Part shown: positions 32,506-37,223 of the stretch, one piece after another
How positions within the stretch are numbered: position 1 is the stretch's first letter
Layout of the letters: each line of letters starts with the position of its first letter
Assembly: GCF_003583925.1 (NCBI RefSeq)
Contig: NZ_QYCN01000003.1
Coordinates: forward strand, 62,001-126,000
Origin: Hymenobacter rubripertinctus
GTDB lineage: Bacteria; Bacteroidota; Bacteroidia; Cytophagales; Hymenobacteraceae
DNA: 64,000 nt
Direction of reading: 5' to 3'
Notes under the pieces: generated by a model
Database searches by the model: none
Told to the model about the DNA's origin: nothing
The model's input: only the letters and a program-made list of their open reading frames with translations
Translations under genes and position numbers: made by a program

Positions 32506-32594
32506 TGTCCTTCCGACGAAGGAAGAATCCGGGTAAATAGTTGAAAGATGTTATTCGACGATTTACCCCAGATTCCTGCTTCGTCGGAAGGACA
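32506..32594. repeat. Palindromic repeat, GTCAT/GTCCT family
   Basis: 16-bp perfect outer arms TGTCCTTCCGACGAAG/CTTCGTCGGAAGGACA and inner GATTC and GGTAAAT pairs. It shares CCGACGAAGGA with the element at 34465. Confidence 0.8.
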
Positions 32595-32712: not shown

Positions 32713-32731
32713 GAGCTTACATCACCTTCCC

Positions 32732-33205
32732 ATGTCTACCATCAACTACTATACTCCCGAAGGCCTTCAGAAGCTGAAAGATGAGCTTCAGGACCTCAAA
32801 ATCCGGGGCCGGGCCAAGGCCGCCGAGGACCTGCGCGAAGCCCGGGACAAGGGCGACCTGAGCGAAAACGCGGAGTACGACGCCGCCAAGGACGCCCAGG
32901 GCCTGCTGGAGTTGAAAATCTCGAAGCTGGAGGAAGTGATGGGCAACGCCCGCCTGCTCGACGAATCGAACCTGGACCTGACCAAGGTGCTCATCATGAG
33001 CAAGGTGAAACTCAAGAACCTGAAGAATAACATGGTGCTCGACTACACCCTCGTCGCCGAGGAGGAAGCCAACCTGGCCGCCGGCAAAATCTCCGTCAAG
33101 TCGCCCATCGGCAAAGGCCTGCTGGGCAAATCGGCCGGCGACACGGCCGAAATCACGGTGCCCGCCGGCAAGCTCCAGTTCCAGATCCTGGAAATCAGCC
33201 GCTAG
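32732..33205 (+). CDS. greA: Transcription elongation factor GreA
   Basis: Rescues backtracked RNA polymerase by stimulating transcript cleavage. 157 residues: N-terminal coiled coil with the acidic tip residues in ARDKGDLSENAEYDAAKDAQ, then the C-terminal globular domain (SVKSPIGKGLLGKSAGDTAEI). ATG at 32732. The short distance to the upstream terminator means any transcript reaching greA from the visible promoter must pass it. A second strong terminator follows the gene. Confidence 0.96.
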   Translation: MSTINYYTPEGLQKLKDELQDLKIRGRAKAAEDLREARDKGDLSENAEYDAAKDAQGLLELKISKLEEVMGNARLLDESNLDLTKVLIMSKVKLKNLKNNMVLDYTLVAEEEANLAAGKISVKSPIGKGLLGKSAGDTAEITVPAGKLQFQILEISR

Positions 33206-33220: not shown

Positions 33221-33266
33221 AAAAAAGAAGAGGTGAGACCCAAATGGGCCTCACCTCTTCTTTTTT
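33221..33266. terminator. Terminator of greA
   Basis: Perfect 17-nt arms AAAAAAGAAGAGGTGAG/CTCACCTCTTCTTTTTT, ending in a T-run; usable in both directions. Confidence 0.92.
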
Positions 33267-33354
33267 GCGCGAAGTTCGTAGACTTGCTACTCAGCATAAT
33301 CTCACCATTGTGCTGAGTCCCGTCCCGTTTCTCACTTCTCACTTCCAATAAAGT

Positions 33355-34263
33355 ATGCCTTCCATTTTCTCCCGCATTGTTTCGGGTGAGCTGCCCGCTC
33401 ACAAGGTTGCCGAAGACGAGCACCACTTGGCCTTCCTCGATATTACGCCGCTTGTGGAAGGGCACACGCTCGTGATTCCGAAGCGCGAAGTCGATTATAT
33501 CTTTGATTTGCCTCCGAGTGAGCTGGCGGCCTTGCACCTGTTTGCCCAGCGCGTGGCCCGAGGCGTGAAGGCGGCCGTGCCCTGTAAGCGCGTGGGCGTG
33601 GCCGTAATCGGGCTCGAAGTGCCCCACGCCCACATCCACCTGATTCCGATGAACAAGGTGGCCGATATGAACTTCGCCAACCCCAAGATTAAGGTGGATG
33701 AGCGGCGGATGAACGAGTTGGCCGCCGCCATCGGGGCGCAGGTGCCTACCGTGGTACCCGGCACGCCCGAACTGCCCGACGACCCCCGCGACACGAAAGG
33801 CGGCCGCGAAACCGTGGAAGCCTCCGAGCCCGAAGCGCAGGCCCCGCAGGGTGCTGATAATGCCGCCGCCGATAACCCGGCCCTGGCCCCCATCCGGGAG
33901 ATGACCAAGGGCCTGATGTTCATCAGCGAGTCGGATGCGGCGCTGGAGCCGGTGAGCTTCGCGGCCCCGGCCGGCGGCCTCACCGACGACGCCCTCGGCC
34001 AGCTGGCGGGGGTGCCGGCCGGTACGCCCGTGGAAAAGCAGGAGCTGACCTACTTCCTGCGCAACCACACCGCCGACCAGGGCGTGCTGGGCGACCCGGC
34101 GCTGGCCAACCGCTACAAAGGGCTGCAAATGTACCTCAAGCAGGAGCTGAGCGGCACCCAGGTCTACCGCTTCGGCAGCGGCCCCCAAATTCCGGTGCTG
34201 GTGCTGGGCGAGGGCGAAGGCGGCCGGCTGCTGGGCTTCAAAACGGTACTCACCGAAACCTAA
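33355..34263 (+). CDS. HIT-domain protein fused to a NuiA-like nuclease inhibitor domain
   Basis: 302 residues, about twice a normal HIT protein. Residues 1-~130: HIT (histidine triad) nucleotide-binding domain with H91-H93-H95 (PHAHIHLIP). Residues ~131-178: acidic Pro/Glu/Ala linker. Residues ~180-302: a domain that reads like nuclease A inhibitor NuiA (PF07924), with GLMFISES (E192), a QVYR.G strand, VLVLGEG.GG.LLGF.T, and the exact C-terminus ...TET, T302 being the last residue as in cyanobacterial NuiA. No signal peptide, so cytosolic. A NucA-family exported nuclease is encoded 1.5 kb downstream on the other strand. The fusion is unusual; the HIT part alone would be called a HINT-type hydrolase. 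Confidence 0.85.
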   Translation: MPSIFSRIVSGELPAHKVAEDEHHLAFLDITPLVEGHTLVIPKREVDYIFDLPPSELAALHLFAQRVARGVKAAVPCKRVGVAVIGLEVPHAHIHLIPMNKVADMNFANPKIKVDERRMNELAAAIGAQVPTVVPGTPELPDDPRDTKGGRETVEASEPEAQAPQGADNAAADNPALAPIREMTKGLMFISESDAALEPVSFAAPAGGLTDDALGQLAGVPAGTPVEKQELTYFLRNHTADQGVLGDPALANRYKGLQMYLKQELSGTQVYRFGSGPQIPVLVLGEGEGGRLLGFKTVLTET

Positions 34264-34288
34264 GCCGCAGTCCGTTGCCCGCTGAATC

Positions 34289-34318
34289 AGCCCGCTCCGG
34301 TTTCGGAGCGGGCTTTTT
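34289..34318 (+). terminator. Terminator of the HIT-NuiA gene
   Basis: AGCCCGCTCC/GGAGCGGGCT stem with six-nt loop followed by TTTTT, 25 bp after the stop. Confidence 0.9.
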
Positions 34319-34338
34319 GCTGAATTTGCACCTTCCTC

Positions 34339-34497
34339 ATGGAACGTCCCTGCCTTTACCTCGATATCGACGACGTGCTGCTCACCAACCGCTACCCAGC
34401 GCCGCCCTCTGGAAACGGATCGGCTGCGGCTCCTGCTGGAGCGGTTGAGCTCCTGAAAAAGGCGTGTCATTCCGACGAAGGAAAAATTGGGAAATAA
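34339..34497 (+). pseudogene. Remnant of a HAD-like protein gene
   Basis: An ATG with LYLDIDDVLLTN looks like the first motif (DxDxV) of a HAD-fold phosphatase, but the frame soon turns into low-complexity and ends after 52 codons. Reading one frame over after codon 22 gives PLETDRLRLLLERLS, a plausible continuation, so a frameshift is likely. The rest is lost where the GTCAT-family palindrome at 34465 begins. Confidence 0.45.
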
Positions 34498-34541
34498 CCG
34501 TTCGATAAGTCTCTCCAGATTCCTCCTTCGTCGGCATGACA
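34465..34541. repeat. Palindromic repeat, GTCAT family
   Basis: TGTCATTCCGACGAAGG mirrored by CCTTCGTCGGCATGACA around a ~40-bp centre. It lies at the broken end of the HAD remnant and 5 bp from the end of the AI-2E-family gene. Confidence 0.78.
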
Positions 34542-34545
34542 TGCC

Positions 34546-35640
34546 CTATGCCGGCGGTAATGGGGGCGGTAGTGGCGTTGCCTCCTCCGCGGCTTCGCGG
34601 CGGCCCAGCAGGGTGCGGCGGCGGGTGCGGTTTTCGCGCTCGAACACCGTTATCAGCACGATGAAGTAGGAGAGCAGCAGCGGCCCCATCACGAGGCCCA
34701 GAATGCCGAAGATTTCGACCCCTAGCACCACCCCGGCCAGTGTAATGAGCGGGTGGATGTCGCCCATGCGGCGGGCCAGCACGATGCGCAGCAGATTATC
34801 GATGTTGATGATGACGATGGTGCCCACCAGCAGAATACCCACGCCCTCGCCGGTGTGGCCCTGGGTGAGCTTGAGAATGGCCGCCGGTCCCCACACCAGG
34901 GGCGTGCCCAGCACCGGAATAAAGGCCGTGAAGAAGGAAAGCGTACCCCAGAACCAGGCGTCGGCTACCCCGAAAATCTGGAGGGTGAGGGCCGTGAGCA
35001 GGGCCTGCACCAGGGCAATGAGGGCCTGACCGAGTACGTTGGCGTTCACCGTGTTGCGCAGCGCGTCGCCCAGCTCACGCAGGGTGCTGCTGCGGAAGGG
35101 CAGGTAGCGGCGCAGACCCCGCAGAAACGCCTCTTCCTCCATGTACATGAAGTAGAGCGTGAACAGCATCAGCCCGATAATGACGGTGAAGTGCAACAGC
35201 CCGCTGGCCAGCGACGGAATGCGCGTACTCAGCCAGCTCACCACCTGCTGCACCAGGTCACGCACGTTGTTTTCCGTGGTGAACTGGTAGCCCGTTTTCT
35301 GCTCAATGGTGTGCAGCACCACCATAATCTGGCTGGTATCCTGGGCGTAGAGGCGGATGCGGTTGACGAGCATGAACACCAGGGCCGTGAAGGGCAGAAT
35401 TATCACTACGAAGGCGAACAGCAGCAGCCCGCCCGTAACCAGCTGCCGGCTCCAGCGGCGGCGGTGCACGAGGGCCGTAAACCAGGGCCGCAGCACCACG
35501 TAGAGCACGCCCGCGCCCAGAAACGCCGTGATGTAGCTGCCCAGCCCCACCAGAATCAGTACCGAGAGGCCCACCAGGCACAGAATCAGCAGCACGTACT
35601 GTTGGCGGGGCGTGTAGATGTTCTCGGAAGCCATAGGCAA
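34546..35640 (-). CDS. AI-2E family transporter (UPF0118)
   Basis: Polytopic membrane protein of 364 residues with the family's pattern of paired helices at the N-terminus, a central amphipathic region (~110-160) and four to five C-terminal helices. Family motif region GTPLVWGPAAILKLTQGHTGEG and GIEIFGILGLVMGPLLLSY-like end (here GVEIFGILGLVMGP). Members include AI-2 exporters and Na+/H+ antiporters; substrate not predictable here. It stands between the HIT-NuiA and nuclease genes, on the nuclease strand, but 140 bp separate it from the nuclease stop. Confidence 0.9.
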   Translation of the reverse strand: MPMASENIYTPRQQYVLLILCLVGLSVLILVGLGSYITAFLGAGVLYVVLRPWFTALVHRRRWSRQLVTGGLLLFAFVVIILPFTALVFMLVNRIRLYAQDTSQIMVVLHTIEQKTGYQFTTENNVRDLVQQVVSWLSTRIPSLASGLLHFTVIIGLMLFTLYFMYMEEEAFLRGLRRYLPFRSSTLRELGDALRNTVNANVLGQALIALVQALLTALTLQIFGVADAWFWGTLSFFTAFIPVLGTPLVWGPAAILKLTQGHTGEGVGILLVGTIVIINIDNLLRIVLARRMGDIHPLITLAGVVLGVEIFGILGLVMGPLLLSYFIVLITVFERENRTRRRTLLGRREAAEEATPLPPPLPPA

Positions 35641-35713
35641 TAGGAAGAGTCGGGAAGTGGAAAGTTAGGAAGGTGGGCAGTTACAAAGTAGGATGATTAA
35701 TTAGTCTGGCGGT

Positions 35714-35754
35714 CGAGATGCTTCGCCTGCGGCTCCGCTTTGCTCAGCATGACA
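35714..35754. repeat. Half copy of the GTCAT-family repeat
   Basis: Its reverse complement reads TGTCATGCTGAGCAAAGCG...GCGAAGCATCTCGACC, i.e. one arm of the family without its mirror half. Confidence 0.55.
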
Positions 35755-35780
35755 CCTCTTTTCCAACCACCAGCCAACCC

Positions 35781-37223
35781 CTACCGCACCGGCCCGGTAT
35801 CCACCTGGGCTTCCAGCTTATCCTGCACCGCCGGGGGCAGGGCCGAGAGCAGGTCGAGGCCGGTGGCGGCTTCCAGGGCGTCGAGGCTGACGCGGTAGCG
35901 GCTCCAGTCGGGGCTTACCTGCTGGTCGTTGGGTGTGTCGATGGCGATGAGGCGGGCCTGGCCGGCGGCAATGCGGCGCAGGTCGTCGGGGCCTTCGGGC
36001 AGCACTACGAGTACTTTCCAGATGCGGGCCGGCACCGTCACGCGGCCCTCATCCAGGGTGGTTTTGAAGCCCGCCGTGCCGGTGCCGCCCTGGCCGTAGC
36101 TGCCCATGATGACGTAGATTTCCTGGCCCCGGCGCACCTGGGCGCGCGCCCACTCCTCCAGGTTGCCCCAGGTGCGCTGGTTGTTGGCCCCCGCCTGCGG
36201 AATCATGTTGGTCATCAGAAAGGTGGCCGAGTTGTCGTCCAGCGTCAGGCTGCGGTCGGCGCTGGGGCAGTTGTGGCCCCGGTCGAAGCCCGAGCCGGAG
36301 TAGGAGCGGGGCGTGACCTGGTAGAACTGCCGGGGCAGGGCGGGGTCGGGGCGGAAGTCGTCCTGGCGCGGGGCCGCGCCCAGCCAGGCCGCACTCAGGT
36401 GCCAGCTCACCCAGGTAGGCGTGCCACGGCGCGCGTTATAGCCCACGGCGTACTGGGGCCGCGTGAGCAGGTAGTTGTTGGGCGTGCTCAGCGAAGCCGT
36501 GGCCCCGCTGGGGTTGCCCAGGGCCAGGTTAGCATCTTGTTGGGAACCGGCCGGCACTCCGGCCGTTCGGGGGCTCGGGCTGGGGAGGGGCGTCTGGGCG
36601 GGGAAATCGGGCGCGCTGCCGGCTACGGCGGTGCCAGCAGCGGTTTCCAGCGTTACGTCATCGAGGTTGAGGCGGCCGGGGCCGGTATCGGTCTTGCGGA
36701 TTTCCAGGCGCAGGCCCCGGGCGCTGCCCCCCTCGAAGGTGGCAACCGCCAGGCGCGGCCCCTGGGTGCGCACGGCCGCCCCGATGCGGCGGTAATTGCG
36801 GCCCTGGTCCTGGCTGCCCCACAGCTCCCAGGTGCTGGCCGCGTCCTGGCCGTAGGCGGCGCTGCTGATGCGGATGCGCTGCACGCCGGCCGGAGCATCG
36901 AAGTTCATGGTGAGCCGGCCCCCGGCCCGCAGGCGGGCGGCGTGGGCACCGTTCTTATGGTCCTGGTCGGAGCTGCCGATGAGGGCTTCCGTGAGGCGCC
37001 AAGAGCCCGAGCCCAGCGTTTCGTCGGCGGCGGCGTAGCTGCCCTTGCCGGCCGTTTCAAAGGTTTCAAGCAAGGTGGCGGCCACCAGACTAGCTGATGG
37101 GCCGGCCGATTCTACGGGAATGGCGGGCGGCCCGGTGGGAGCACCGGGAAGACGGGTTTCGGAGGCCGGCGAAGAGCAGGCCGTCAGCAGCAGGGGCAAC
37201 AGGGCGGAGAGCAGGCGAATCAT
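35781..37223 (-). CDS. Exported DNA/RNA non-specific endonuclease (NucA family) lipoprotein
   Basis: 480 residues. Lipobox Cys16 (LLLTAC) marks an exported lipoprotein. Residues ~50-195 look like a jelly-roll binding module (ETFETAGKGSYAAADETLGSG start, then RIRISSAAYG, GRLNLDDVTLE), unusual for this family. The catalytic domain (~240-480) carries the beta-beta-alpha-metal signature DRGHNCPSADR (D314, H317) with NMIPQAGANNQRTWGNLEEW supplying the metal-binding Asn and Glu. It would cut nucleic acids outside the cytosol. A TATATTGG element lies 5 bp before the ATG, so the transcript would be near-leaderless. The HIT-NuiA gene lies 1.5 kb away. Confidence 0.9.
   Translation of the reverse strand: MIRLLSALLPLLLTACSSPASETRLPGAPTGPPAIPVESAGPSASLVAATLLETFETAGKGSYAAADETLGSGSWRLTEALIGSSDQDHKNGAHAARLRAGGRLTMNFDAPAGVQRIRISSAAYGQDAASTWELWGSQDQGRNYRRIGAAVRTQGPRLAVATFEGGSARGLRLEIRKTDTGPGRLNLDDVTLETAAGTAVAGSAPDFPAQTPLPSPSPRTAGVPAGSQQDANLALGNPSGATASLSTPNNYLLTRPQYAVGYNARRGTPTWVSWHLSAAWLGAAPRQDDFRPDPALPRQFYQVTPRSYSGSGFDRGHNCPSADRSLTLDDNSATFLMTNMIPQAGANNQRTWGNLEEWARAQVRRGQEIYVIMGSYGQGGTGTAGFKTTLDEGRVTVPARIWKVLVVLPEGPDDLRRIAAGQARLIAIDTPNDQQVSPDWSRYRVSLDALEAATGLDLLSALPPAVQDKLEAQVDTGPVR

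Follow-up and report, generated by a model that had tools for sequence, protein, structure and literature searches.

What is a nuclease inhibitor doing at the end of a histidine triad (HIT) protein? The question is raised by a 64,000-nucleotide stretch of the Hymenobacter rubripertinctus genome (contig NZ_QYCN01000003.1, positions 62,001 to 126,000), referred to below as the window, in which a HIT domain and a NuiA domain share one reading frame and a NucA-type nuclease is encoded nearby. Judged from sequence comparison, the HIT-NuiA protein fairly probably inhibits, in the cytosol, the NucA-type nuclease that the same cell is predicted to export, with the HIT half as its carrier. The fusion and the nuclease are laid out as follows.

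33355..34263, plus strand: HIT-NuiA fusion gene (302-aa open reading frame; Pfam HIT and NuiA; AlphaFold2 model)
33355..33744, plus strand: HIT domain, residues 1-130, with the histidine triad H91-A-H93-I-H95 at 33625-33639
33745..33891, plus strand: variable linker, residues ~131-179, Ala/Thr/Pro/Glu-rich, of low predicted local confidence (pLDDT)
33892..34260, plus strand: NuiA domain, residues 180-302, with the E192 codon at 33928-33930 and the C-terminal T302 codon at 34258-34260
35781..37223, minus strand: NucA-type nuclease, 480 aa, start codon at 37223, predicted lipoprotein (LLTAC, Cys16); sequence, Pfam and PDB match
35799..36533, minus strand: nuclease catalytic domain, residues 231-475, with DRGH at 36273-36284; match to 2o3b_A/1zm8, E ~1e-74

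The preliminary description, made from the letters alone, proposed a HIT domain fused to NuiA and named a profile search without a NuiA hit as a result that would speak against it. The NuiA profile PF07924 matches residues 176-302 at 104.1 bits, far over its cut-off of 22.1 and across profile positions 3-130 of 130, and the HIT profile PF01230 matches residues 11-100 at 68 bits (cut-off 21.5). In the PDB, both the whole fusion (E 1.9e-7) and residues 180-302 alone (E 3e-7) match Anabaena NuiA, 2o3b_B. Two residues of the NuiA pattern described for residues 180-302 have counterparts in Anabaena NuiA in this alignment: E192 falls on the E of SES, and T302 on the final Thr. The NuiA half adopts the NuiA fold, and the HIT half has both the HIT fold and the HIT profile, with the triad and its hydrophobic spacing intact (HAHIHLI, residues 91-97). 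The intact triad and fold are shared with the HIT hydrolases (Hint, FHIT, Ap4A phosphorylase); the C-terminal NuiA domain is the difference. In the AlphaFold2 model, two folded domains are joined by a linker of low confidence (pLDDT <50 at 135-171). Among its structure matches, where most rows are taken by the HIT domain and absent rows carry no meaning, is Nit-Fhit (1ems), also a two-domain protein with a HIT-family half, whose partner is a nitrilase-like domain at the other end and not an inhibitor. By eye, no signal peptide is seen at the N-terminus of the fusion. Its HIT half is the only HIT match in the genome.

The fusion is real and conserved. A search with it returned 903 database proteins, and both domains are present in 120/120 of the matches listed. 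All 120 Hymenobacter genomes match the fusion, 115 of them with an uninterrupted frame (88 as a single alignment, 27 as two pieces of one frame). In the 120 listed proteins, the three triad histidines are always kept, E192 is kept in 119, and the T302 position holds Thr in 118 and Ser in 2, while the linker varies from 29 to 62 aa with an Ala/Thr/Pro/Glu-rich composition. The chain stops at the T302 position in 203/203 rows (197 T, 6 S), as a C-terminal-Thr mechanism requires; these rows combine database proteins and locus frames, some of them the same gene, and leave out five locus frames that had no recognisable start. Across 160 NuiA frames in loci, some of which overlap, the final residue is T in 156 and S in 4. 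Databases thus already record the domain content, many of the entries being named 'nuclease A inhibitor family protein' by NCBI. As to novelty, the fusion is widespread in Hymenobacter and its domains are annotated, and it is apparently undescribed, with no describing paper among the literature matches listed, in a coverage that leaves out most subscription journals.

The nuclease expected in the same block, a lipoprotein type with DRGHNC, is present at 35781-37223 on the minus strand. It matches Endonuclease_NS (PF01223) at 165.5 bits, against a cut-off of 23, and Anabaena NucA (2o3b_A) with E 8.7e-75. DRGHNC occupies residues 314-319, and DRGH (314-317) aligns with ARGH in 2o3b_A. The LLTAC lipobox, a predicted export signal, was read by eye, as were the N-termini of the four nucleases in this genome, which carry lipoboxes or a signal peptide. 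Compared with NucA of Anabaena sp. PCC 7120, the window nuclease carries ~150 additional aa towards its N-terminus (36624-37076, minus strand), a stretch with no Pfam match and, by eye, a look-alike in the paralogue L005. As a separate matter, a passage of PMC5374557 places the D121A change in NuiA; the nuclease chain 2o3b_A, however, has ARGH at the DRGH position of the window nuclease, so NucA seems to be the protein that was changed. A pseudogene-like Endonuclease_NS match, interrupted by three stop codons, lies in another genome (G227, C1:2677857-2678537).

Inhibitor and nuclease go together across genomes. NuiA is found in 23/395 genomes of the phylum sample, 81/241 of the order sample and 197/200 of the family sample. 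In the family sample, 192 genomes have both genes, none has the nuclease without NuiA, 5 have NuiA without the nuclease and 3 lack both (Fisher p 4.3e-5); the order sample gives 79, 70, 2 and 90 in the same sequence (p 5.7e-19), both tests ignoring kinship. A count by hand over 103 genera leaves the association in place (both 29, nuclease alone 37, NuiA alone 2, neither 35; p 3.2e-5). A fusion universal in genomes that lack the nuclease, given in advance as grounds for rejecting self-protection, is not seen: the inhibitor occurs without a nuclease in one of 116 same-genus genomes of the family sample (G187). Relaxed selection in G187 was considered and rejected, the NuiA domain having 2 changes at the 40 most conserved positions, the same as in the nuclease-bearing L068.

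The two genes are also linked. From 576 matches, 78 loci were kept, comprising 69 fusions and 9 HIT genes without NuiA; the fusion counts exclude HIT-only and stand-alone rows. The nuclease lies downstream in 60/69 fusion loci, convergent in all 60, at a gap of 339-6493 bp; where at least 7.5 kb of downstream sequence is present (n=60), the nuclease is found in 54 and an intervening permease in 21. The window follows this pattern, with the nuclease 1.5 kb downstream and converging on the fusion. The adjacency first described is not borne out, a permease gene (34546-35634, minus strand) standing between the two. Among Hymenobacter genomes of the family sample with one or two nuclease matches, 23/24 keep the linked copy, at 0.14-7.0 kb; in G192, the fusion and the nucleases are on different contigs. 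G031, G090 and G173 have a single nuclease, which is the linked one, and the linked one is also what G191 keeps, with a split frame. That the copy beside the fusion survives where copies are few is, in our view, the strongest indication that fusion and nuclease are a pair. At the nine unfused HIT loci, three of them on stretches <10 kb, neither nuclease nor NuiA is seen.

Unfused NuiA genes of the family lie closer still to a nuclease, within 326 bp in 16/21 loci. Toxin-immunity pairs are recognised by an inhibitor beside its nuclease, an arrangement found in these unfused loci; the fused loci are near, at 0.3-6.5 kb, and not next door. The idea that stand-alone NuiA always follows the nuclease on the same strand proved wrong, since 11 loci are convergent, 5 same-strand and 5 without a nuclease in the flank. 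Adjacency is not general: it is found in L159 only among 22 order-level loci outside the family (L145-L164, L166, L169), and in L212 only among 11 phylum-level loci (L212-L222). DUF885 (23/60), EEP (7/60) and open reading frame ORF188 (5/60) were dropped as linkage yardsticks, being unfair because they lie beyond the nuclease, where the flank may cut them off.

The nuclease tree was built from a chosen subset of 66 nucleases, 19 of them fusion-linked, L194 having been dropped when no nuclease frame was found. All 19 form one clade (support 100/99). Its sister group (99/96) contains two nucleases without linkage and, from sister genera, four that lie beside NuiA; a further 15 nucleases beside NuiA make up a clade of their own, closer to paralogues such as this genome's L002. 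In the tree of 73 NuiA domains, 28/28 fused domains fall into one clade (100/100), placed among stand-alone NuiA of the same family. From these two trees, it follows that the nuclease and NuiA probably existed earlier as a pair, and that NuiA was then probably fused, in a single event, to the HIT gene beside greA. The 18 stand-alone-NuiA genomes looked at all have a HIT gene apart from NuiA, and the position beside greA is common to unfused HIT genes of other Bacteroidota (7/9 loci). Co-occurrence, linkage and the nuclease tree together support the proposal of self-protection against an exported nuclease.

NuiA also appears joined to other enzymes. Chloroherpetonaceae-like relatives of the green sulfur bacteria carry a HIT-NuiA fusion with an Ap4A-phosphorylase-type HIT domain, and another genus there has an overlapping HIT/NuiA gene pair (L214, L215, L217 and L216 together). 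This fusion appears to have arisen separately from that of Hymenobacter. In genome G337, a 499-aa frame (L145:1498-2997, minus strand) joins chorismate synthase to NuiA; it is the sole protein found when long proteins are searched with its NuiA part, and could be an assembly artefact. The genus-wide fusion, the second HIT fusion and the chorismate synthase case suggest that tethering of the inhibitor to a core enzyme recurs.

The Anabaena proteins provide the template for a mechanism. NucA and NuiA form a complex with 1:2 stoichiometry, and Ghosh et al. 2007 are said to have found the C-terminal Thr and a Glu of NuiA in contact with the NucA active site. By homology, the NuiA half of the fusion would bind nuclease molecules that fold before export, covering the nucleic-acid site while the C-terminal Thr reaches the active-site metal. 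The HIT half, encoded beside greA, would probably be a steadily expressed dimeric carrier; because HinT-like HIT proteins are homodimeric, each particle would carry a pair of inhibitor heads. Several nuclease paralogues, four in this genome, are probably served by one fused inhibitor. The available passages on the known proteins describe NuiA as a competitor of nucleic acid for the NucA site (PMC5758888), its binding to NucA as very tight (pKd 11.49; PMC5374557), Anabaena NucA as exported through a signal peptide (PMC4890671) and E. coli HinT as a homodimer (PMC3130732). Relative to the NucA-NuiA pair of Anabaena sp. PCC 7120, the inhibitor here is fused behind HIT, the Trp of the DWY stretch is absent and inhibition is predicted. 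In the portions covered of the NuiA literature, nothing was found on the dosing of NuiA in non-cyanobacterial cells. Other nuclease and inhibitor or immunity gene pairs, Nin/ComJ-NucA of Bacillus and Imm36/SUKH-Tox-NucA, are comparable; no HIT fusion is named for them in the accessible text of PMC5758888 and PMC3482391, and the former describes Nin as without meaningful sequence homology to NuiA.

Several observations weigh against an own-nuclease inhibitor on a HIT carrier. The fusion and the nuclease are separate, convergent genes, and 9/69 fusion loci are without a nearby nuclease, 3 of these 9 being on short contigs. The upstream genes are kept as often as the nuclease (LAP 52/60, KsgA 57/60, dehydrogenase 59/60, greA 60/60), so the linkage may partly be plain shared gene order. 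No uninterrupted fusion frame is visible in 5/120 Hymenobacter genomes: in G186 and G189 the frames are broken yet nucleases are present, in G193 and G196 the match starts at residues 54 and 52, and in G197 the NuiA half is missing among the matches listed. NuiA occurs without a nuclease match in G187, G046, G091, G101 and G131 of the family sample and in G308 and G384 of the order sample; no nuclease was found within ~9.5 kb of the Chloroherpetonaceae-like fusions. With its low-confidence linker, the model (pTM 0.50) is uninformative on domain contact. HIT is the partner in two separate fusions, which suggests more than a carrier.

This last point leads to the reading in which the HIT half is a sensor of a nucleotide, for instance Ap4A or a ligand linked to AMP, and a filled HIT site would tighten or loosen the hold of NuiA, so that nuclease control tracks stress or nucleotide state. 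The second fusion, built on another HIT subfamily, keeps the link between HIT and nucleotides alive, and it is suggestive that HIT was chosen more than once; PMC6789022 describes HINT1 releasing a partner upon Ap4A binding in mast cells. Sensing by the HIT half is rather unlikely, however: the linker is variable and of low confidence, most of the other lineages listed have NuiA as a free-standing protein, and in one genome it is carried by chorismate synthase. A carrier accounts better than control from the HIT site for the chorismate synthase protein and for the variable linker. In its fullest form, also unlikely, HIT-NuiA would be a nucleotide-responsive immunity protein that evolved at least twice, from a greA-linked and from an Ap4A-phosphorylase-type HIT, reading Ap4A or a related alarmone to set the grip of NuiA; stress could then free a cell-killing or DNA-recycling nuclease. 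The role of the HIT half is the interesting part of the fusion. The wide conservation of bacterial HIT proteins is called enigmatic in the accessible text of PMC3130732, and HIT-NuiA offers a direct test of the roles that they may have besides catalysis.

The seven genomes with NuiA and no own nuclease match (5/200, 2/241) would also suit a NuiA domain that guards against NucA-type nucleases of competitors or phages, and such domains are found in polymorphic toxins according to part of PMC3482391. This is quite improbable, given how strongly NuiA co-occurs with the cell's own nuclease and how well the linkage is kept; in the same partial text, the immunity families named for Tox-NucA are Imm36, SUKH and NTF2, with 0 occurrences of NuiA. 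It is very improbable that the NuiA half no longer binds a nuclease and instead stabilises or regulates the HIT enzyme. The Anabaena DWY Trp is indeed missing from the aligned family rows, fused and unfused, and the fusion persists in nuclease-less G187, its NuiA having changed no more than in the relative L068, but the C-terminal Thr/Ser and E192 are almost invariant, and the same Trp is lost from unfused NuiA genes beside nucleases. Inhibition of the cell's own nuclease, with HIT as carrier, is thus preferred.

The surroundings of the two genes in the window contain the following further features.

32729..33205, plus strand: greA, upstream neighbour of the fusion (Pfam GreA_GreB; synteny in 60/60 fusion loci counted)
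33221..33266, plus strand: inverted repeat of 22 nt, A/T at its ends, in the gap from greA to the fusion; terminator-like, a putative function
34289..34314, plus strand: terminator-like hairpin directly 3' of the fusion (5 such sites in the region vs 4.2 expected, weak alone)
34546..35634, minus strand: AI-2E-type permease gene between fusion and nuclease (Pfam PF01594)

A 12-nt inverted repeat at 33289-33318, just 5' of the fusion start, is a possible operator or promoter part. The unit of greA and the fusion is flanked by two inverted pairs of GTCMTTCCGACGAAGGA-like 17-mers (32507-32593 and 34466-34540), which resemble repetitive extragenic palindromes; with up to 3 mismatches, the 17-mers give 4 matches against 0.1 expected.
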